A DNA stretch of 64,000 bases from Arenicellales bacterium (GTDB taxonomy: Bacteria; Pseudomonadota; Gammaproteobacteria; Arenicellales; JAJDZL01), in the NCBI GenBank assembly GCA_951813075.1, contig OX638343.1, positions 924,149 through 988,148 on the forward strand. The letters run 5' to 3'. Below the pieces are notes generated by a model. It was not told where the DNA came from. It made no database searches and was given only the letters and a program-made list of their open reading frames with translations. Made by a program: the position numbers and the translations under genes. Below, piece by piece: positions 1-11,930 of the stretch. Positions within the stretch are counted from its first letter, which is position 1, and every line of letters starts with the position of its first letter.

Positions 1-3000
1 GTCCACATCTGTCCCCCAGTCGCTCCTGAGCGATGCCGAAAAGCCGCTTCCGCCAGTGTGTGGCATCAGTCGCATTTGCAAACTGGCCCCCCACTCGTCG
101 TAGCCGGTTGCGGAATGCACCAAAAGCTTGCGCACACGCACCTCGGCGACACTGCGATCTTTCTCGTAGCGGATGCCGCCTGTCACGTCCAGCCCTGAAC
201 CGGTTTCACCATCACCACCGTCGTGACGGCCGATGATTCCAGCATGCGGCACGACTTCGGCTCCGTTGGTCGTCTTGTACCGCTTCGATCCTTCCAGTCC
301 GGCACGGACTTGACTGGCAAAAGTGCGCAGATTGCCAAGATTACCGTCGCTTTCGCCGGTTTTCAGCATAATCCCGCTTGCTTCGATACGTGTCCCCAGC
401 TCCACACCTTTAACGGGTCGCATAGTCAGATGCAACCCCGTTGCCGCCATGGACATCTTCAAGGTACTCCTCTGGGTAATCGAATTCGGTTGCGAGCGCA
501 TGGCCTTACCGCTGCCGACACCCAGAATCGCCCATCCCTCAAGGTCGTCAGACAGCTTCCACTGGCCGTAGGGATGAACCGCGGTCAGACGCGTTTCAAG
601 CAACCCACCGTCCTGATTGAATTTCATCCGGCCTGAGGTTCCCCCAATTGCAACACCTTTCAGCCACTCATCGGTGTGTGCGTCAACACCCAGATAAAAC
701 GATTCCAAAGAGCCGTCATAAGTGGCCGGTTCCCCGGAATCTCTGCTGAAGTTTGTATAATCGCCCCGCCCCCAGATACTCCAACGATGCCCGGATGCGT
801 CTGCTGCATCGGCGTCAGACAGCGACAAGGTAAACGAGCTGCGAGCAAGGAGCTCACGATCGCCCAGACTCAGAATTCCGCTTTGTGAACCCGCATTGAA
901 TGGCGTACCTGCATGACAGCCGACACTAGACCTGGCCAGAGTGCTACCGCGGTGCGCGGCAACTGCCGGAGCGCACACCGTGCGTCGAACGACGCCACCA
1001 TTGAACGGATCGCTGTACCCGCCACCACTGAGTGGAACGCTTTGCCCTGCAATCTGCAGCTGCTTGCTGCCGGAACCTCTTCCCGAATCAAACTGCGTGC
1101 GAATATTCCCGATGGCGGAACTCATTATCTGACTTCCAATCGTTGCCATTGCGTGCTCCAACACCAATGAAGTCGCCGACAGGGAAAACTCGAATAACAT
1201 TGCAAACGGACTAAAACTCGCTACCACTGCACAAACACGGATACCATCATCCGTGGAGTCCAACGGATTCCACTTTCCATCCTCGTACCTGCCTATCTGT
1301 AGCGGTTTACCTACGCTTTCCGAGGCTCGCCTGATTTGTGAGTCAGCTGGCGCAAACAAGCATACGGCGGCGCTCTGACCTGCCAATCCCTGCACGTCAA
1401 TATCGATAGCACTGTCCCCGTCGACACGGTAAAGCGGGCTTTGACGCACCACCGAACTTGCCGCCTCGCCTATCGTGACATTCAGGTTTTCTGTCGGTTG
1501 TGCCGGCAATTCCAACGCAACCATCTCCGGTACAGTGCCGGAGCGATTGACTGTCACCGTATGCTCACCGAGATCGAAAATTTGTGTGCCGGGGGACGTC
1601 GGCGTAATTGACAGAATCAGCTTGTCATCGTTTGTTATCGTCCCTGTCGCTTCAATCGTAGCGAAATTCCTAAGTGATGCTCCGCTCCCGATAGTGCCGT
1701 CAATTGTAATAGTGAACTGCTCGTCAGCCTCCGGATTCGAATCCTCCGATGAACTAACGCTGATAGTCACCGAAATATCACCTGTTGGAATAGTAGCAGT
1801 TGCGCTCGGCGCGGTGTAGTCACTGCTATCGACCGGTTTCGTCCCTGAGGGGGTGACTGCTACGCTCAGCGAGGCTGCACCCGTCGGCATTGTCGACATT
1901 GTCACCGTAAACTCCAGGTCGTTGCCCTCGACTGCCGAAACATCCGACATTGTCAGCGTCGGAGTCGATTCATCATCGGAAATCTTTAAATTCACCGTTG
2001 ACGGGCCGGTGATGCCCTGAGAGTTCGAAGCCGACCCTGATACGTCCACCGACTTTTGAAGATTGTCAAATACAGTGTCGTCGACCGCTGTTATGGTTAC
2101 CGTCCCTGTGCTGGTCAATGCACCGGCCGCAATGCTCAGGCTGGTGTTCGCGCTCAATGAAAAGTGAGTGCTGAGGGTGTTCGATCCCGCCGCTGCCGAC
2201 ACCGCGATCGTGGTTGAATCGCTGGACGCATGATCCAGCGTTGCGGTCACCGTCGCCGAACCGCCGTTCTCATTGATGGCGCTTGCCGACAGATTCAGTG
2301 TCACGGTCGGCGCTGCCTCATCATCGTTGACCGTCACATCGACCGCATTGTTAGTGCCATGTACCGTATAGTCGGCACCCGTCGTCACCGTCACCGTCAC
2401 CGTACCGTCGGCCTCGTCAGTGCTGTCGTCGACCGTCGACACCGTATATGTCGCACTGGTCGCATCGGCCGAAATGCTCACAGTCTTTGGACCCTCGTCG
2501 CCGGAGGCCACATAGTCGCCCGACTCGGATACCGTCAGCTCCACCGTCAGCGCCTGATACGGTGCCGGGGAAATACTCAGTGTGAACGACGCAGCATCCC
2601 CCTCGGTCACCGCACTGTCGCCCGATATGCTGATCTCCGGCACATCGTCATCGTTGACCGTCACACTGTCTGTATTGTCGGTGCCATGCACCGTATAGTC
2701 GGTACCCGTCGCCAGCGTCACCGTCACCGTACCGTCGGCCTCATCCTGGCTGTCGCCGACCGTCGACACCGTATATGTCGCACTGGTCGCGTCCGCCGGA
2801 ATGGTCACAGTCTTTGAACCCTCGTCGCCGGACGCCACATAGTCGCCCGACTCGGATACCGTCAGCTCCACCATCAGCGCCTGATGCGGTGCCGGGGAAA
2901 TGCTCAGTGTGAACGACGCAGCGGTGCCCTCGGTCACCGCACTGCCGCCCGAAATGCTGATCTCCGGCACATCGTTATCGCTCACCGTCACATTGACTGC

Positions 3001-6000
3001 ATTGCTGGGGGCACGCACCGTATAGCCAGTACCCGGCGCCAGCGTCACCGTCACCGTACCGTCGGCCTCGTCAGTGCTGTCGCCGACCGTCGACACCGTA
3101 TATCTCGCACTGGTCGCATCGGCCGGAATGGTCACAGTCTTTGGACCCTCGTCGCCGGAGGCCACATAGTCACCCGACTCGGATACCGTCAGCTCCACCT
3201 TCAGCGCCTGATACGGTGCCGGGGAAATACTCAGTGTGAACGACGCAGCATCCCCCTCGGTCACCACCGCACTGTCGCCCGATATGCGGATCTCCGGCAC
3301 ATCGTCATCGTTGACCATCACACTGTCTGTATTGTCGGTGCCATGCACCGTATAGCCGGTACCCGTCGCCAGCGTCACCGTCACCGTACCGTCGGCCTCG
3401 TCAGTGCTGTCGCCGACCGTCGACACCGTATACGTCGCACTGGTCATGTCGGCCGGAATGGTCACAGTCTTTGGACCCTCGTCGCCGGACGCCACATAGT
3501 CACCCGACTCGGATACCGTCAGCTCCACCGTCAGGTCGGCCGCCGGTGCCGTCAGCGCCGACACCGTGAACGTCGCATCATCCCCCTCGGTCACCACCGC
3601 ACTGTCGCCCGATATGCTGATCTCCGGCGGGTCGTCATCGTTGACCGTCACACTGTCCGCATTGTCGGGTGAATCTGCCACCGTATAGTCGGTACCCGTC
3701 GCCAGCGTCACCGTCACCGTACCGTCGGCCTCATCCTGGCTGTCGCCGACCGTCGACACCGTATACGTCGCACTGGTCGCATCGGCCGAAATGCTCACAG
3801 TCTTTGGACCCTCGTCGCCGGAGGCCACATAGTCGCCCGACTCGGATACCGTCAGCTCCACCGTCAGCGCCTGATACGGTGCCGGGGAAATACTCAGTGT
3901 GAACGACGCAGCATCCCCCTCGGTCACCGCACTGCCGCCCGATATGCTGATCTCCGGCACATCGTCATCGTTGATCTGCACGTTGGCCGCATTGTCGGGT
4001 GAATCTGCCACCGTATAGTCGGTACCCGTCGCCAGCGTCACCGTCACCGTACCGTCGGCCTCATCCTGGCTGTCGCCGACCGTCGACACCGTATACGTCG
4101 CACTGGTCATGTCGGCCGGAATGATTACAGTCTTGCTCCCCTCGTCGCCGGAAGCCACATAGTCACCCGACTCGGATACCGTCAGCTCCACCGTCAGGTT
4201 GGCCGCCGGTGCCGTCAGCGCCGACACCGTGAACGTCGCATCATCCCCCTCGGTCACCACCGCACTGTCGCCCGATATGCTGATCTCCGGCACATCGTCA
4301 TCGTTGATCTGCACGTTGGCCACATTGTCGGGTGAATCTGCCACCGTATAGTCGGTACCCGTCGCCAGCGTCACCGTCACCGTACCGTCGGCCTCATCCT
4401 GGCTGTCGCCGACCGTCGACACCGTATACGTCGCACTGGTCGCATCGGCCGAAATGCTCACAGTCTTTGGACCCTCGTCGCCGGAGGCCACATAGTCGCC
4501 CGACTCGGATACCGTCAGCTCCACCGTCAGCGCCTGATACGGTGCCGGGGAAATACTCAGTGTGAACGACGCAGCATCCCCCTCGGTCACCACCGCACTG
4601 TCGCCCGATATGCTGATCTCCGGCACATCGTCATCGTTGATCTGCACGTTGGCCGCATTGTCGGGTGAATCTGCCACCGTATAGTCGGTACCCGTCGCCA
4701 GCGTCACCGTCACCGTACCGTCGGCCTCATCCTGGCTGTCGCCGACCGTCGACACCGTATACGTCGCACTGGTCGCATCGGCCGAAATGCTCACAGTCTT
4801 TGGACCCTCGTCGCCGGAGGCCACATAGTCGCCCGACTCGGATACCGTCAGCTCCACCGTCAGCGCCTGATACGGTGCCGGGGAAATACTCAGTGTGAAC
4901 GACGCAGCATCCCCCTCGGTCACCACCGCACTGTCGCCCGATATGCTGATCTCCGGCACATCGTCATCGTTGATCTGCACGTTGGCCGCATTGTCGGGTG
5001 AATCTGCCACCGTATAGTCGGTACCCGTCGCCAGCGTCACCGTCACCGTACCGTCGGCCTCATCCTGGCTGTCGCCGACCGTCGACACCGTATACGTCGC
5101 ACTGGTCGCATCGGCCGAAATGCTCACAGTCTTTGGACCCTCGTCGCCGGAGGCCACATAGTCGCCCGACTCGGATACCGTCAGCTCCACCGTCAGCGCC
5201 TGATACGGTGCCGGGGAAATACTCAGTGTGAACGACGCAGTATCCCCCTCGGTCACCACCGCACTGTCGCCCGATATGCGGATCTCCGGCACATCGTCAT
5301 CGTTGATCTGCACGTTGGCCGCATTGTCGGGTGAATCTGCCACCGTATAGTCGGTACCCGTCGCCAGCGTCACCGTCACCGTACCGTCGGCCTCATCCTG
5401 GCTGTCGCCGACCGTCGACACCGTATACGTCGCACTGGTCGCATCGGCCGAAATGCTCACAGTCTTTGGACCCTCGTCGCCGGAGGCCACATAGTCGCCC
5501 GACTCGGATACCGTCAGCTCCACCGTCAGCGCCTGATACGGTGCCGGGGAAATACTCAGTGTGAACGACGCAGTATCCCCCTCGGTCACCACCGCACTGT
5601 CGCCCGATATGCGGATCTCCGGCACATCGTCATCGTTGACCATCACACTGTCTGTATTGTCGGTGCCATGCACCGTATAGCCGGTACCCGTCGCCAGCGT
5701 CACCGTCACCGTACCGTCGGCCTCGTCAGTGCTGTCGCCGACCGTCGACACCGTATACGTCGCACTGGTCATGTCGGCCGGAATGGTCACAGTCTTTGGA
5801 CCCTCGTCGCCGGACGCCACATAGTCACCCGACTCGGATACCGTCAGCTCCACCGTCAGGTCGGCCGCCGGTGCCGTCAGCGCCGACACCGTGAACGTCG
5901 CATCATCCCCCTCGGTCACCACCGCACTGTCGCCCGATATGCTGATCTCCGGCGGGTCGTCATCGTTGACCGTCACACTGTCCGCATTGTCGGGTGAATC

Positions 6001-7074
6001 TGCCACCGTATAGTCGGTACCCGTCGCCAGCGTCACCGTCACCGTACCGTCGGCCTCATCCTGGCTGTCGCCCACTGTCGCCACTGTATACGTCGCGCTG
6101 GTCATGTCGGCCGGTATGATTACAGTCTTGCTCCCCTCGTCGCCGGAAGCCACATAGTCACCCGACTCGGATACCGTCAGCTCCACCGTCAGGTTGTCCG
6201 TCAGTACCGTAAGTGACGACACCGTGAACGTCGCATCATCCCCCTCGGTCACCACCGCACTGTCGCCCGAAACGCTGATCTCCGGCGGGTCGTCATCGTT
6301 GATATTCACGTTGGCCGCATGGTCGGGTGAATCTGCCACCGTATAGCCGGTAGCCGGCGACAAAACCACTGATATCACGCCATTGCCCTCGTCCTGGCTG
6401 TCGCCCACCGTCGCCACCGTATACGTCGCACTGGTCATGTCGGCCGGAATGATTACAGTCTTGCCCCCCTCGTTGCTTGAGTCCACATGATCGCCAAACG
6501 AGGTGGACTCAATTACCCATAACTCCACCGTCAGGTTGTCCGTCAGTACCGTAAGTGACGACACCGTGAACGTCGCATCATCCCCCTCGGTCACCACCGC
6601 ACTGTCGCCCGAAACGCTGATCTCCGGCGGGTCGTCATCGTTGATATTCACGTTGGCCGCATGGTCGGGTGAATCTGCCACCGTATAGCCGGTAGCCGGC
6701 GACAAAACCACTGATATCACGCCATTGCCCTCGTCCTGGCTGTCGCCCACCGTCGCCACCGTATACGTCGCACTGGTCATGTCGGCCGGAATGATTACAG
6801 TCTTTTCCCCCTCGTTGCTTGAGTCCACATGATCGCCAAACGGGGTGGACTCAATTACCCATAACTCCACTGTCAGGTTGGCCGCCGGTGCCGGACTCGC
6901 AGACACCGTGAACGACGCAGCACCTCCCTCGGTCACCACCGCACTGTCGCCCGAAATGCTGATCTCCGGCGTTTGTGCGTTCGCCAACGGTGTAACTGCT
7001 GGCAGTGCTGCGACTGCAATGAAAAGCGTAACAAGAAACTGTACCAGTTGCGCGTGCGAGAGCGAAATATCCAT
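1..7074 (-). CDS. Giant exported Calx-beta repeat protein with C-terminal barrel (3' end outside window)
   Basis: One minus-strand frame stays open from an ATG at 7074 to the window edge (2,358 codons seen, no stop). I checked the frame at the start, through 600-1380 and at the edge. Residues 1-33 form a signal peptide: a hydrophobic stretch ending in an A-N-A cleavage site. From about residue 35 come 14 well-conserved units of roughly 109-114 residues, each opening with a D-D-D-x-P-E-I motif and the phrase SGDSAVVTEG. These resemble calcium-binding Calx-beta domains. Two or three divergent units follow (about 1600-2320). The last part (below about 800) has an aromatic/glycine pattern such as WGRGDYTNF and alternating beta strands, as in outer-membrane barrels of autotransporter-like proteins. 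A GGAGG lies 3 nt before the ATG. Likely a cell-surface adhesin or matrix protein; function and export route are inferred. Confidence 0.85.
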   Translation of the reverse strand, partial: MDISLSHAQLVQFLVTLFIAVAALPAVTPLANAQTPEISISGDSAVVTEGGAASFTVSASPAPAANLTVELWVIESTPFGDHVDSSNEGEKTVIIPADMTSATYTVATVGDSQDEGNGVISVVLSPATGYTVADSPDHAANVNINDDDPPEISVSGDSAVVTEGDDATFTVSSLTVLTDNLTVELWVIESTSFGDHVDSSNEGGKTVIIPADMTSATYTVATVGDSQDEGNGVISVVLSPATGYTVADSPDHAANVNINDDDPPEISVSGDSAVVTEGDDATFTVSSLTVLTDNLTVELTVSESGDYVASGDEGSKTVIIPADMTSATYTVATVGDSQDEADGTVTVTLATGTDYTVADSPDNADSVTVNDDDPPEISISGDSAVVTEGDDATFTVSALTAPAADLTVELTVSESGDYVASGDEGPKTVTIPADMTSATYTVSTVGDSTDEADGTVTVTLATGTGYTVHGTDNTDSVMVNDDDVPEIRISGDSAVVTEGDTASFTLSISPAPYQALTVELTVSESGDYVASGDEGPKTVSISADATSATYTVSTVGDSQDEADGTVTVTLATGTDYTVADSPDNAANVQINDDDVPEIRISGDSAVVTEGDTASFTLSISPAPYQALTVELTVSESGDYVASGDEGPKTVSISADATSATYTVSTVGDSQDEADGTVTVTLATGTDYTVADSPDNAANVQINDDDVPEISISGDSAVVTEGDAASFTLSISPAPYQALTVELTVSESGDYVASGDEGPKTVSISADATSATYTVSTVGDSQDEADGTVTVTLATGTDYTVADSPDNAANVQINDDDVPEISISGDSAVVTEGDAASFTLSISPAPYQALTVELTVSESGDYVASGDEGPKTVSISADATSATYTVSTVGDSQDEADGTVTVTLATGTDYTVADSPDNVANVQINDDDVPEISISGDSAVVTEGDDATFTVSALTAPAANLTVELTVSESGDYVASGDEGSKTVIIPADMTSATYTVSTVGDSQDEADGTVTVTLATGTDYTVADSPDNAANVQINDDDVPEISISGGSAVTEGDAASFTLSISPAPYQALTVELTVSESGDYVASGDEGPKTVSISADATSATYTVSTVGDSQDEADGTVTVTLATGTDYTVADSPDNADSVTVNDDDPPEISISGDSAVVTEGDDATFTVSALTAPAADLTVELTVSESGDYVASGDEGPKTVTIPADMTSATYTVSTVGDSTDEADGTVTVTLATGTGYTVHGTDNTDSVMVNDDDVPEIRISGDSAVVTEGDAASFTLSISPAPYQALKVELTVSESGDYVASGDEGPKTVTIPADATSARYTVSTVGDSTDEADGTVTVTLAPGTGYTVRAPSNAVNVTVSDNDVPEISISGGSAVTEGTAASFTLSISPAPHQALMVELTVSESGDYVASGDEGSKTVTIPADATSATYTVSTVGDSQDEADGTVTVTLATGTDYTVHGTDNTDSVTVNDDDVPEISISGDSAVTEGDAASFTLSISPAPYQALTVELTVSESGDYVASGDEGPKTVSISADATSATYTVSTVDDSTDEADGTVTVTVTTGADYTVHGTNNAVDVTVNDDEAAPTVTLNLSASAINENGGSATVTATLDHASSDSTTIAVSAAAGSNTLSTHFSLSANTSLSIAAGALTSTGTVTITAVDDTVFDNLQKSVDVSGSASNSQGITGPSTVNLKISDDESTPTLTMSDVSAVEGNDLEFTVTMSTMPTGAASLSVAVTPSGTKPVDSSDYTAPSATATIPTGDISVTISVSSSEDSNPEADEQFTITIDGTIGSGASLRNFATIEATGTITNDDKLILSITPTSPGTQIFDLGEHTVTVNRSGTVPEMVALELPAQPTENLNVTIGEAASSVVRQSPLYRVDGDSAIDIDVQGLAGQSAAVCLFAPADSQIRRASESVGKPLQIGRYEDGKWNPLDSTDDGIRVCAVVASFSPFAMLFEFSLSATSLVLEHAMATIGSQIMSSAIGNIRTQFDSGRGSGSKQLQIAGQSVPLSGGGYSDPFNGGVVRRTVCAPAVAAHRGSTLARSSVGCHAGTPFNAGSQSGILSLGDRELLARSSFTLSLSDADAADASGHRWSIWGRGDYTNFSRDSGEPATYDGSLESFYLGVDAHTDEWLKGVAIGGTSGRMKFNQDGGLLETRLTAVHPYGQWKLSDDLEGWAILGVGSGKAMRSQPNSITQRSTLKMSMAATGLHLTMRPVKGVELGTRIEASGIMLKTGESDGNLGNLRTFASQVRAGLEGSKRYKTTNGAEVVPHAGIIGRHDGGDGETGSGLDVTGGIRYEKDRSVAEVRVRKLLVHSATGYDEWGASLQMRLMPHTGGSGFSASLRSDWGTDVD
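2300..6990 (-). repeat. Tandem array of about 14 Calx-beta-coding units (about 327-342 bp each)
   Basis: The coding motif for P-E-I (gatctccgg on the plus strand) recurs near 2632, 2959, 3289, 3619, 3949, 4282, 4615, 4948, 5281, 5613, 5944, 6277, 6619 and 6961. Four central units are spaced exactly 333 bp and are nearly identical in DNA. Unit length is always a multiple of 3, so copy-number changes keep the frame. This is a coding tandem repeat, not a CRISPR array. Confidence 0.9.
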
Positions 7075-7231
7075 TTGCCTCCGTTGCCGCAACGTTAAAT
7101 TACCTTGCAATCTGGTCACACCGCTCCGGCGATTGGACACAATTGTGTTTGCTATCATCCAGCGATTCTCATTATGGGAATTTTAGGGATTATAAACTTC
7201 ACTTATCCATTGGAATTATTTTCTAATTCCA

Positions 7232-7438
7232 CTAATCTCGAAGATCGTTCTGTTTTGCCTTGATGTCGCGGTTATTGATGCGCGGTGTGCTCATCAATCG
7301 CTGAGCAATTCGTTGTGCCCGCCGGTGAACTTCTTCGGATATCGCCCGACCGCGTACTTTCAATTTTGACTCGGCTGCCTGCTTCATCTGTTCAGCACCT
7401 GAATATGACCACTCAATGCAACCTTCCATCAACACCAC
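7232..7438 (-). CDS. Short basic ORF inside the IS, possible passenger
   Basis: A 67-residue minus-strand ORF overlaps the last codons of the transposase and ends before the left inverted repeat. It is rich in Lys, Arg and Ala in its C-terminal half (for example KLKVRGRAISEEVHRRAQR), suggesting a helical basic protein. I do not recognise it. It lies wholly within the element and on the same strand, so it could be a passenger gene or simply a chance frame. No strong ribosome-binding site is visible. Confidence 0.3.
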   Translation of the reverse strand: MVLMEGCIEWSYSGAEQMKQAAESKLKVRGRAISEEVHRRAQRIAQRLMSTPRINNRDIKAKQNDLRD

Positions 7439-8377
7439 AGACCAGATCCTTGTTCAACAGCCGCTTGCCGATAAATCCAGCTGCGATGAACTCCATTTGC
7501 CTGACCGTATCCAGCTCCCGAAGGTTATGCCGCCCGGCAAATTCACTTACATAACGACCCGGATGTTTCTTGCTCATCTTGTGGTACGTGCCCTTATGGG
7601 CTCGCTTGAGCATCGACCAGAAACTTTCGATGCCGTTGATATGAATGTCTCCATCAACATATTCACCACTTGAATGCTTGACATAGTGATGCCTGAAGTC
7701 GTCCAGTTCCTGATAACTGACAAAGTCATCACAATGCACCGTTGAGCCTGGCGCCGCACCTTCGCAGATGAATCCATGCAGCGTCGAACGCTTTGTGTCC
7801 TCAATCACTTTTGCCTTGATCCGCCTGGTTTGTCGTTGTTTCATGCCAACACAGCCGTTTTGCCAACCGCACCACGACCGGCTTTGAGCTTGTTCGATTC
7901 ATGCTTGTTCTTCTCAATGCCACCAACGCAAGTCTCATCGACTTCCACTGTCCCAGTGTAGACAGCACTGTCGTCGGCCAATGCAGATCTGATCTTGAGC
8001 AGCATCCGCCAGGCCGATGGCTGCGATATGCCAAGGTCGCGGTGCAGCTTCATTGATGAGACACCCTTGCGACTGGTTGCCACCAGGTATACCGCAATCG
8101 CCCACTGGCGAAGGGATATATGCGAACCTTCCAGAATCGTTCCATGACGGGCAGAGAAGTGCTTCCGGCAAGTTCTGCACTTGTGAGGCAGAGGCTTGCC
8201 ATTGGCCACCTCGTAGGTGTTGGTGCCGCCACAGCGATGACAGACCGCCACGCCGTCTTTCCAAATAATCGACTCAAACCACTTTCTTGCTGTTGTCTCG
8301 TCTGGAAACATCTCAAATAACTCAAGCAGTGTGATGCCCTTGCTGTGCGATTTTCCAGGTGAATTGCGTTGCGGCAT
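7413..8377 (-). pseudogene. IS1595/ISXO2-type transposase, frameshifted
   Basis: Two abutting minus-strand frames make one transposase. The upstream frame (open from 8467, outside the element; I prefer the internal ATG at 8377) carries a zinc-ribbon C-x2-C...C-x2-C (CHRCGG and CRTCRK) and the first catalytic Asp in VDETCVGG. It stops at 7841 after GKTAVLA. The downstream frame (ATG 7844 to 7413) carries the second Asp in HCDDFVSY and the H-I-N-G-I-E-S-F-W motif typical of this family. The junction overlaps as ATGA. Family members usually have one uninterrupted frame with G-M-K here, so one base appears to be missing. Inactivation is likely; programmed frameshifting or a sequencing error cannot be excluded. 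Confidence 0.8.
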
Positions 8378-8585
8378 AATTTGATCTACTCGTGCGGAAT
8401 AATTTTCTGAATTCTTCTCTCGAATTGTAGAATATTCCGTTGGGTTAGTTACGTTTATAACCCCCATTTTTTACCTGGTGAAGAATGCTCTGATTTCACC
8501 TTGATATCAATCAAGAGATAAAAAGCATATAAAACAATGAGTTGGAACTTGTACTTTAGGGCGGTTTATGTTGTAACTGAAGTCC

Positions 8586-9608
8586 ATGGATTTCACGGTC
8601 GACAATCTGATCAACAAACTGCGGGCCATCCTAGAAACATTGCCCGACTCGCGCACCGGTAATAATTTCAGTTTCAATTCACCGACATCGCGATGTCGGC
8701 GTTTTCCGCATTCTTCATGCGGTATCCCTCATTTCTGGATCACCAGCGCCGCTTCCAGCAAGCACATAACCGTCATGCCGGTCAGTCGCTGTTCGGCATC
8801 GCACGCATTCCCACGGACAACCACATTCGTGAAAAACTCGATCACATCGACTGCCAGCTGCTGTATCCGGCGTTCGACATGGCGCTTGAACAATTGGTTG
8901 AGAATCAGGCCCTTGGCGAGTTTTCCAGACTCGATGACAAAATCCTGATCGCCATCGACGGCTCGCAGTTCCATCACTCGGAAAAGATTCAATGTCCCCA
9001 GTGCAGCACCCGATATCACAAAAAGTCCAACACAGTCTCCTATGCCCACAGCGTGCTGTGTGCCACCGTGGTGGCCGACGGCCACAACCGGGCAATACCA
9101 CTGCGTCCGGAGTTCATCACACCGCAGGACGGTGACCGTAAACAGGACTGTGAGACCAAAGCCGCCCACCGCTGGATTCAACGCCATCTGCGACACTATC
9201 GACACCTTCGACCGGTCATTCTCGGCGATGATCTTTTCGCCCACCACCCGATCTGCCACAGCATTGTCGAGGCCGGATATGATTTTATGTTCACCGCCCT
9301 GCCCGGTTCCCACAAAACCCTCTACAGCTACCTTGATGGATTGCAACTGAATCGCAAAGTCACCCGTCCGGGGCGAAAAAAGGGTCCGGGTCGGGAAACC
9401 CGGACCTATCGGTGGTCCAAGTGGCCATTGCCGATCCGCGACACCAATGATGCGCTGCAGGTGTATTGGTTCTCGATGCACATCCAGTATCGAGGCAAAA
9501 CCACCTATGAAAACCATTTCATCACCTCCATCGAACCCACCGAAGACAAATTCGTGGGGCTGGCCAACGGTGCCCGGGCACGTTGAAAAATCGAAAATGA
9601 GTCGTAAT
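8586..9608 (+). pseudogene. DDE transposase, frameshifted and interrupted by a stop
   Basis: The N-terminal frame (8586 on; MDFTVDNLINKLRAIL, then LPDSRTGNN) changes to the frame at about 8660-8690 that reads FTDIAMSAFSAFFM and continues to 9586. The body has features of DDE transposases that carry a paired-cysteine motif: LIAIDGSQFHHSEK (first Asp), CPQC, PEFITPQDGDRKQDCE and LGDDLFAHHPIC (second Asp). The C-terminus reads GARAR, TGA, KIENES. A Trp codon is expected in place of TGA, followed by more sequence, so the gene has a frameshift, a nonsense change and a lost end. I recognise the family only loosely (ISNCY-like). Confidence 0.65.
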
Positions 9609-9629
9609 GTGCGCCGCACATTACGACTC
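9599..9629. repeat. Perfect 15-bp inverted repeat with 1-base centre
   Basis: GAGTCGTAATGTGCG at 9599-9613 is followed by one C and then its exact reverse complement at 9615-9629. It starts where the transposase remnant loses its expected sequence. It could be a deletion scar, a terminator-like hairpin (no T-run follows) or the end of another small element. Confidence 0.85.
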
Positions 9630-9882
9630 TAATGTTGACAGAAAAATAATGTTACAAGTTGTCGCCTGAACCTTTCAGCAGCTGAGGACTCCCTTTTCAG
9701 CGAGAAAACACCTGTTCAATCGGTTGGGACTGGTTCAATTTCCACCATCAGGTGAGCCTGATAGTTGTTTTCCGGTGCGAAAACGTGGCAGGGCAAACGA
9801 ATCGGCTATTTCCCGAACCTGGCCATGTGCTGGCGTGCTGCAATCGGCATGGTTGCCGGATTGCTGTGGTTCAGTGCTGATT

Positions 9883-10128
9883 TCAATCCGAAATTGACCC
9901 ACCTCTGAAGCCCAATACCAACATCAGCAAGCCATTGCGACCCAGTTCTATGAGAAAATCAGACACACTTCGGTGCTGCAACACCTTCATGGCGTAAAAC
10001 GCATTGACCATCGCCTCAATCGGACAGTCCGTTCGTCCACTGTTGTTGCGATGCAGACGAATCTGTCGGATAATTTCATGATTCTCAGTCCGTCGCTGAA
10101 GTTGGGACAGCAGGTTTCTGAGTGGTTA
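9883..10128 (-). pseudogene. Transposase N-terminal fragment
   Basis: On the minus strand, a frame from about 10128 down to a TGA at 9883-9885 reads with the pattern LRNLLSQLQRR...EIIRQIRL...PIEAMVNAFYAMKVLQHRSV...LIELGRNG...LGF. This resembles the N-terminal region of certain IS4/IS5-like transposases (consensus with a Trp/Phe-rich helix, F-Q-H-x-S, R-E-L-x-R-N-G-Q, C-G-F). There is no upstream start and the catalytic part is missing, so it is a remnant. Family is uncertain. Confidence 0.45.
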
Positions 10129-10129
10129 A

Positions 10130-10850
10130 AGAGTGCCGCCGTGTCGCAGGTCCAACCAGAATAGTTCATGATTGACGAACGATGTCATGAGTCGTCTCCC
10201 TGTGTGGTTTTCTGGTTTTATATTGTGTGGGACAACAGCCAGTTCATGGCACCTTTTATCAATAGTAACAATAGGATAAGCCGGCAATTGAGGATGCAGC
10301 GAGGCCATGCAGTTGGCGTGGAAATTTCGGTTTCCGCCCTCGATATGGCTGAACAGACCCGTATGTCGGGGCAAAAATATTTTACGGCCGCTGATGCCCA
10401 CACCGAATCAAACAGTTAGTTTTATCGAAAATGTCTCTTGTAAATACATGAAATCTCAATGACGTTACTTGATCTCGAACCACAGGACAACTATGGAAAC
10501 ATTGAATTCGGCAAGTTCGCGTTTTGTCCGGGTGGACAATTTCCCTCAGCCCAGTTGAGCACCTCTGATTGCAGAAAATTCATGGCAAATCGGATAGTAA
10601 CCTCTTACGATGTTCACAATTCCAGAGTTGCACACATGGAATTCCCGTAATTTCATCATTCATTCGCCCAAGTTTGAACGAAAAGGTGCTGCGCAGCGGC
10701 TCACTTAAAAGTAACTTCTGCGTCTCTGGCAATAAAACGAGGAATCCTGCTTGTTTTTGGTTAATATTCAAGGTTAAATGATTGTAGTTACGCAAGTGCT
10801 ATTGACAAAGTTTCTATTGCGGTACTGCAGACCTCAAACTGACGGTTTAA
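10130..10850. other. Gene-poor stretch between IS remnants and the catabolic operon
   Basis: Several short overlapping frames of 60-90 codons exist on both strands but none carries a motif I recognise. The first half continues the composition of the IS remnants. The last 100 bases become AT-richer and probably hold the promoter of the nitronate monooxygenase gene. I cannot point to a convincing -35/-10 pair. Confidence 0.4.
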
Positions 10851-11930
10851 ATGACAACAAAGCAACAACTTATTCGACGGGCTGAAAGTTTCTGCGAGCG
10901 ACTTGGGATTAAGTTGCCCATTGTGCTTGCGCCTATGGCCGGAGCATGTCCCACGGAGCTCTCGATCAAAGTGGCCGAAAGCGGTGGTCTCGGTGCTTGC
11001 GGAGTTCTTCTGATGAGTCCTGAACAGATTATTGAATGGAGCAGAACCTTCAAGTCGGCAAGTGACGGTCAGTTCCAGCTCAACAACTGGATTCCGGATC
11101 CCGAATCGGCTCGTGACATTCACAAGGAACAGCTGGTCCGAGACTTTCTGAGTCAATTCAGTGACCAGGATCAACCCGATGTCGTCGATACTGCCACTCC
11201 TGAATTTGATGCGCAGTGTGAAGCCATGCTTGAATCAAGCCCGCGTGTGATTTCAAGCATTATGGGTGTCTATCCGGATGAATTCATCACGCGAATGAAA
11301 TCACGGGGAATTATCTGGTTTGCCACCGCAACGACAGTGCGGGAAGCTATTGAAGCAGAAGAAAAAGGTGCCGATGTGATTGTCGCCCAGGGTATTGAGG
11401 CTGGTGGTCATCGGGGTACGTTCAACGCCGACGAAGCAGAACAGTCGATGGCCGGGCTATTTTCACTTATACCTGCTATTGCGGATGTGGTTAGATTACC
11501 GGTTGTTGCTACCGGTGGTATTGCGGACGCCCGAGGCATTGCATCGGCAATTGTTCTAGGCGCGTCAGCAGTTCAGATCGGCACTGGTTTCCTGCGATGC
11601 CCTGAGTCCGGTATACCGACAGCATGGGCTGACGCGATCGGAAATTCCGCTCCCGATTCGACGATGCTCACTCGCGCGTTTACCGGAAGATTGGGACGAT
11701 CGATCGCAACTGCCTACGCTCAAGCTGCGGCCTCATCCGATGCGCCGATTCCCCGGCCGTACCCCATACAGCGAGCGCTCACCAAACAAATGACAGCCGC
11801 TGGACGTCGTAACAACGATCTGGACAGAATTCAGGCTTGGGCTGGCCAATCTGCGTCACTGGCAAAAGCTGTTGCCGCAGACAAACTGGTTCGTAAACTA
11901 TGGGATGAGGCATTGAGCCTGCTGTCCTGA
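10851..11930 (+). CDS. Nitronate monooxygenase family flavoprotein
   Basis: This 359-residue protein matches the FMN-dependent nitronate monooxygenase / 2-nitropropane dioxygenase family. The N-terminal PIVLAPMAGA lines the flavin site. GIEAGGHRG near residue 188 carries the His characteristic of class I enzymes. ATGGIADARG and GASAVQIGTGFL bind the FMN phosphate in the TIM barrel. Such enzymes oxidise nitronates (for example propionate 3-nitronate). Members annotated this way in catabolic clusters may act on other substrates. It precedes the liu operon by about 170 bp on the same strand and may be co-transcribed with the thioesterase. The start ATG directly follows an in-frame TAA; the ribosome-binding site is weak. 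Confidence 0.85.
   Translation: MTTKQQLIRRAESFCERLGIKLPIVLAPMAGACPTELSIKVAESGGLGACGVLLMSPEQIIEWSRTFKSASDGQFQLNNWIPDPESARDIHKEQLVRDFLSQFSDQDQPDVVDTATPEFDAQCEAMLESSPRVISSIMGVYPDEFITRMKSRGIIWFATATTVREAIEAEEKGADVIVAQGIEAGGHRGTFNADEAEQSMAGLFSLIPAIADVVRLPVVATGGIADARGIASAIVLGASAVQIGTGFLRCPESGIPTAWADAIGNSAPDSTMLTRAFTGRLGRSIATAYAQAAASSDAPIPRPYPIQRALTKQMTAAGRRNNDLDRIQAWAGQSASLAKAVAADKLVRKLWDEALSLLS

Follow-up and report, generated by a model that had tools for sequence, protein, structure and literature searches.

How might a giant protein built largely of Calx-beta domains reach the cell surface when no transporter genes lie adjacent to its own gene? This question is raised by the left end of the window, the 64,000-nucleotide stretch of DNA analysed here (bases 924149-988148 of a source genome that is a single contig of 3.14 Mb), and it arises against a background in which Calx-beta domains are listed among those enriched in Ircinia symbionts (PMC9531527), Calx-beta, cadherin and fn3 domains are reported to be enriched in sponge symbionts (PMC9531527, PMC8163846), and few lineages encode secretion systems able to deliver eukaryotic-like repeat proteins (PMC8163846). 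The original prediction had combined a Calx-beta rod with a C-terminal autotransporter-like anchor and had seen neither an export partner nor a type I system nearby; the combination is now supported by profiles and fold comparison, and the missing neighbours, also confirmed, are to be expected because an autotransporter is self-contained. We consider it likely that the gene encodes a giant monomeric autotransporter-like surface protein whose Calx-beta rod is exported by its own C-terminal barrel.

The gene and its predicted rod

The gene, like all of the protein features described below, lies on the minus strand, and its open frame exits the window at the left edge. When the flanking sequence was fetched, the stop codon (TGA) was located 293 nt past that edge, giving 2,483 codons from an ATG at 7158 or 2,455 aa from the in-frame ATG at 7074; the latter start, which places the coding sequence inside the window at 1..7074, is preceded by a strong Shine-Dalgarno sequence (CGGAGGCAA) and has a better ribosome site than the upstream ATG. 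Both the long stop-free frame and the signal peptide at its start had been anticipated (the strand had not been given), and the N-terminus indeed carries the hydrophobic signal stretch LVQFLVTLFIAVAAL, with a candidate Sec-type signal peptide assigned by hydrophobicity at 6976..7074 and a cleavage site placed by eye between MDISLSHAQLVQFLVTLFIAVAALPAVTPLANA and QTPEIS. The domain order is signal stretch, 14 repeats, two diverged repeats, pre-barrel region, helix, linker and C-terminal barrel. Whole-protein profile scans missed both the barrel and the Calx-beta domains while returning spurious families (NQRA_N, HflX_C), and the pieces were scanned separately.

Repeat analysis and profile comparison delineate 14 tandem Calx-beta-type repeats of 109-114 aa (residues 65-1617; 2308..6966), the last of which is also seen in the structural model, followed by two diverged Calx-beta/LapA-type domains (residues 1618-1846; 1621..2307) assigned by the model, by Foldseek and by matches to PF03160 and PF20579 below cut-off, and together these would form a rod of 16 Calx-beta domains. 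Individually the domains miss the Calx-beta (PF03160) cut-off of 27 bits, with a single repeat scoring 13.0 and the best diverged domain 19.1, and the diverged domains match the LapA family PF20579 weakly; when these repeats are combined with related ones into a profile, NCX1 CBD12 is hit at 7e-8 and CALX at 1e-4, and Foldseek with the rod part of the model retrieves NCX1 CBD12 (3us9) at 4e-9 as well as CALX CBD12. Tandem Repeats Finder (TRF) describes the array as 13.6 copies of a 333-nt period with 90% matches, and since the DNA of repeats 5 and 6, and likewise of repeats 4 and 11, is identical to two decimals, the length of the array has probably changed recently.

The TEG, GDY/H, DSxDE and terminal acidic signatures are kept in 14/14 repeats, and the array is composed of 18% acidic and 1% basic residues, leaving the rod with a net charge of about -258. 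Which of the acidic signature positions are calcium ligands is an assignment that we carried over from NCX CBD1 and take to hold here. Because these acidic, calcium-type positions are kept in each of the 14 repeats, we infer that the rod binds calcium and that calcium in seawater should neutralise and stiffen it. A motif search found no RTX GGxGxD motif in the protein. As separate observations, the repeat array is 28% identical to a "host specificity protein" of Xanthomonas phage vB_XciM_LucasX (MW825358.1, 209077-211005), and ARAGORN reports a tRNA-Leu(CAG) at 6902-6993 on the minus strand, inside the first repeat, which lacks Rfam support and is probably false.

A C-terminal barrel with 18 predicted strands

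Between rod and barrel, the model places a pre-barrel region ending in VCAVVASFSPFAML (residues 1847-1994; 1177..1620) with pLDDT below 50 and no confident fold, then an alpha-helix of ~30 residues (1995-2024; 1087..1176; pLDDT ~92 at its core), which is a candidate pore or linker helix and occupies the place that the conserved WLARFGRTVAEQ helix has in relatives, and finally a low-confidence linker (residues 2025-2124; 787..1086). No relatives of the pre-barrel region were found in 369 genomes of the class, and one weak relative occurs inside locus L169. ZU5/FIIND-like self-cleavage at the SFSPF motif of this region was considered and rejected: there is no ZU5 profile match, the region is without relatives in the class, the lone weak relative reads SLSPF there and lacks the F-S pair, and the model confidence there is below 50.

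The outer-membrane beta-barrel itself is assigned to residues 2125-2483 (1..786, with the last 97 residues outside the window) and ends in ...GIMFNLAVKF, with a terminal Phe. When the last 433 residues are scanned alone they match the Autotransporter family PF03797 at 9.4e-12 (45.6 bits against a cut-off of 26), a match that a scan of the full-length repetitive protein does not show, so that what had been described as barrel-like sequence goes beyond mere resemblance; the stop, reached by the leftward extension that had been proposed, lies outside the window, yet the sequence up to it matches an autotransporter profile and there is no type I signal. Two AlphaFold models, one built from 20 sequences and the other from 91 (the latter spanning residues 1508-2483), agree on 18 barrel strands. 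In the second model the helix (pLDDT ~92) precedes the barrel, and block-mean pLDDT is 89-98 for strands 2-11 and mostly 71-91 for strands 12-18. The in/out alternation of the predicted strands averages 1.13, compared with 0.55 when shuffled (maximum 0.90 in 2,000 shuffles), and the hydrophobicity alternation is strongest in the C-terminal half. Searched with Foldseek, the barrel retrieves other outer-membrane barrels; the beta domains of BrkA and EspP are among them (target TM ~0.52), as are larger receptors of the TonB-dependent type. Across the family, the last residue is W, F or Y in 85 of 91 members.

Where, then, do the additional strands lie? The PF03797 alignment covers profile positions 1-113 of 255 only, and at locus L003 the match stops ~140 residues short of the C-terminus; measured between the conserved Trp of the first strand and the C-terminus, the 91 members reach 355-418 aa (355 aa in the window protein), compared with the 255 positions of PF03797 and 253-262 aa in a set of short relatives. 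The simplest reading of these lengths and of the models is that about six extra strands are present in the C-terminal part of the barrel. Of the anticipated autotransporter-like anchor, the kinship therefore holds, by profile and fold comparison, while an ordinary 12-strand barrel does not, with 18 strands being predicted.

Characterized type V barrels possess 12 strands (Va, Vc), 16 (Vb, Vd) or 8 (Vf), and type Va passengers are mostly beta-helical (PMC9289746), while type Ve proteins display Ig-like rods from an N-terminal barrel (PMC3297439). The window protein resembles type Va autotransporters (BrkA, EspP, EstA) in its N-terminal signal and passenger, its helix, its aromatic-ending C-terminal barrel and its PF03797 match, but differs in barrel size (~255 aa and 12 strands in type Va, 355-418 aa and 18 predicted strands in the family described here) and in carrying Ig-like Calx-beta domains rather than a beta-helix or enzyme. 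With the inverse autotransporters intimin and invasin it shares a monomeric barrel, a helix and an Ig-like rod for adhesion, but not the order, since their barrel is N-terminal and their passenger C-terminal; with the patatin-like type Vd it shares a C-terminal barrel of more than 12 strands (16 in Vd, 18 predicted here), but neither a patatin nor a POTRA domain was found in the protein. Giant adhesins of the BapP, LapA and CabD type (PMC12153261) likewise extend through tandem calcium-dependent Calx-beta or cadherin-like domains; the window protein differs in the C-terminal outer-membrane barrel joined to its rod and in its lack of RTX repeats. It thus combines type Va order, a Ve-like rod and a barrel larger than either, and although probably autotransporter-like in its working, it would not be a classical type Va protein, given the predicted barrel size and the passenger type. 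That it represents a new type V subtype, with a monomeric barrel of ~18 strands that is kin to the 12-strand barrel, is longer by about six strands in its C-terminal part and acts in sponge symbionts of several phyla as the common means of exporting eukaryotic-like Calx-beta, fn3 and cadherin rods and anchoring them in the outer membrane, is a proposal that we regard as evenly balanced; if true, it would widen the range of type V translocators beyond 8, 12 or 16 strands (PMC9289746).

Proposed export route, genomic insertion and alternative explanations

In the proposed mechanism, Sec would carry the protein into the periplasm, the C-terminal barrel would be inserted by BAM, perhaps aided by TAM, by way of its aromatic C-terminal signal, and the N-terminal passenger would then traverse the outer membrane and fold outside into the rod, while the ~30-residue helix probably stays in or near the barrel pore. 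BamA and a TamA-like Omp85 are encoded elsewhere in the genome. Exposed in this way, the rod would likely attach the cell to the sponge matrix or to neighbouring cells, and export route, surface location and adhesion are all inferences. Known type Va barrels are much smaller, so it is assumed here that this one translocates its passenger in the same way.

Eighteen strands are porin-size rather than autotransporter-size, and together with the Foldseek matches to TonB-dependent receptors they might indicate a large porin- or receptor-size channel with its N-terminal Calx-beta rod kept in the periplasm. We consider this unlikely, since open frames of 1,500-5,900 aa would be too long for the periplasm as extended rods, the Calx-beta, fn3 and cadherin passengers are of adhesion types, and PF03797 homology coincides with a helix ahead of the barrel. 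The Sec-type signal stretch, the absence of RTX nonapeptides and of adjacent transporter genes, and an aromatic-ending barrel that matches PF03797 make it highly improbable that the protein is instead a type I secreted RTX/LapA-like adhesin with a merely barrel-resembling C-terminus, a reading for which the weak PF20579 match of the diverged domains would speak.

The surroundings of the gene allow for one more explanation. Comparison with congeners places it in an 11-12 kb insertion (window part 1..10850) flanked by an icmF-type mutase gene (left, outside the window) and a nitronate monooxygenase gene (10851-11930), which are 13.2 kb apart here compared with ~1.6 kb in three congeners; the insertion is absent at the same site in all three, where the gap holds other cargo (the cargo gene of G001 differs from that of G004 and G005). 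The GC content of the gene is 59.6%, compared with 48.8% for the window, and just upstream, within the inserted segment, lies an interrupted IS1595-family transposase in two overlapping frames (7413..8467, minus strand; ATGA overlap). The Calx-beta gene was recently inserted, and could be a non-functional newcomer that arrived with IS remnants and is not expressed, as its flanking remnants, its absence from congeners, its foreign GC and its single copy (no second barrel was found elsewhere in the genome) would allow; this is quite unlikely, however, for a 7.4 kb gene with a promoter-like site, a strong Shine-Dalgarno sequence and a frame intact across 2,483 codons. The split in the IS1595 transposase may be a frameshift or a programmed shift. 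Other transposase-like traces were noted at 8693-9619 (plus strand, 297 aa, no Pfam match, with an antisense open frame of 296 aa) and at 8300-9653 of L001, downstream of the gene, where remnants are IS21-like and ISKra4-like by eye and have no Pfam match.

A family of relatives, mostly in sponge microbiomes

The rod-and-barrel arrangement is no peculiarity of this protein: it is the usual one in a large family found mainly in sponge-microbiome MAGs. Relatives share so little identity (20-38%) that the first genome scan, made with a single sequence, came up empty and had to give way to one built on aligned close relatives. Of 109 genomes of the order, 15 contain relatives, and a profile search of 369 genomes of the class recovers them in 16, the strong matches (>100 bits) being well separated from a handful of partial ones (~40 bits or less). 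Scanning a collection of 84,980 species genomes with the alignment gave 122 relatives, of which 80 were kept, labelled Alpha- and Gammaproteobacteria, Acidobacteriota, Nitrospirota, Binatota, Gemmatimonadetes and Latescibacterota, i.e., five or six phyla going by bin label; none were found on plasmids or viral contigs. Calx-beta domains occur within 460 aa before the barrel in 56 of 81 relatives, while others have fn3, cadherin or Ig domains.

Eight of the 80 loci belong to SB06xx bins, a series that we take to be from an Ircinia ramosa project. Caribbean Ircinia sponges are the source of another 31, the jk18x bins (PMC9531527), and bins 65 and 129 of a sponge microbiome (PMC5649159) account for 4 more, so that 35 of 80 named loci trace to sponge papers, and sponge reads have been matched to a strain named SB0677 (PMC12203066). 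The other 37 were judged by name only (25 CAR/COS/RHO/APA, 7 p16x and 5 others); CAR and RHO serve as sponge codes (PMC12203066), and most of the loci outside the 35 look sponge-derived by bin name. The genus of the window genome also appears to include a sponge-derived bin. Studies of eukaryotic-like proteins in sponge symbionts (PMC9531527, PMC8163846) describe the same domain types in the same microbiomes, but they count domains, and the fusion to a barrel is the difference here; our literature search, which covered few subscription journals, found no paper that ties these domains to a C-terminal barrel, and the family, large and found mainly in sponge-microbiome genomes, is apparently undescribed. 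If the proposal is true, a fused self-exporting barrel across phyla would provide a display route for adhesion-type eukaryotic-like proteins without a separate secretion machine, and a domain-counting observation would become a concrete, testable protein family.

Cadherin and fn3 gene transfer has been noted previously (PMC8163846), and the barrel tree mixes classes, with 14 changes compared with a minimum of 4; since mis-binned contigs and paralogy can explain part of this mixing, the tree hints at transfer between phyla but does not establish it. Two pairs of near-identical barrel genes lie on contigs labelled Alphaproteobacteria and Vicinamibacteria (L097/L099) and Binatia and Gemmatimonadetes (L151/L155), reflecting either recent transfer or mis-binning. 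In the same order, a related family (G010/G020; L008, L009, L022, L039) combines a short, canonical-length barrel with small passengers, and its copies in G010/G020 are many, with up to 13 matches per genome.
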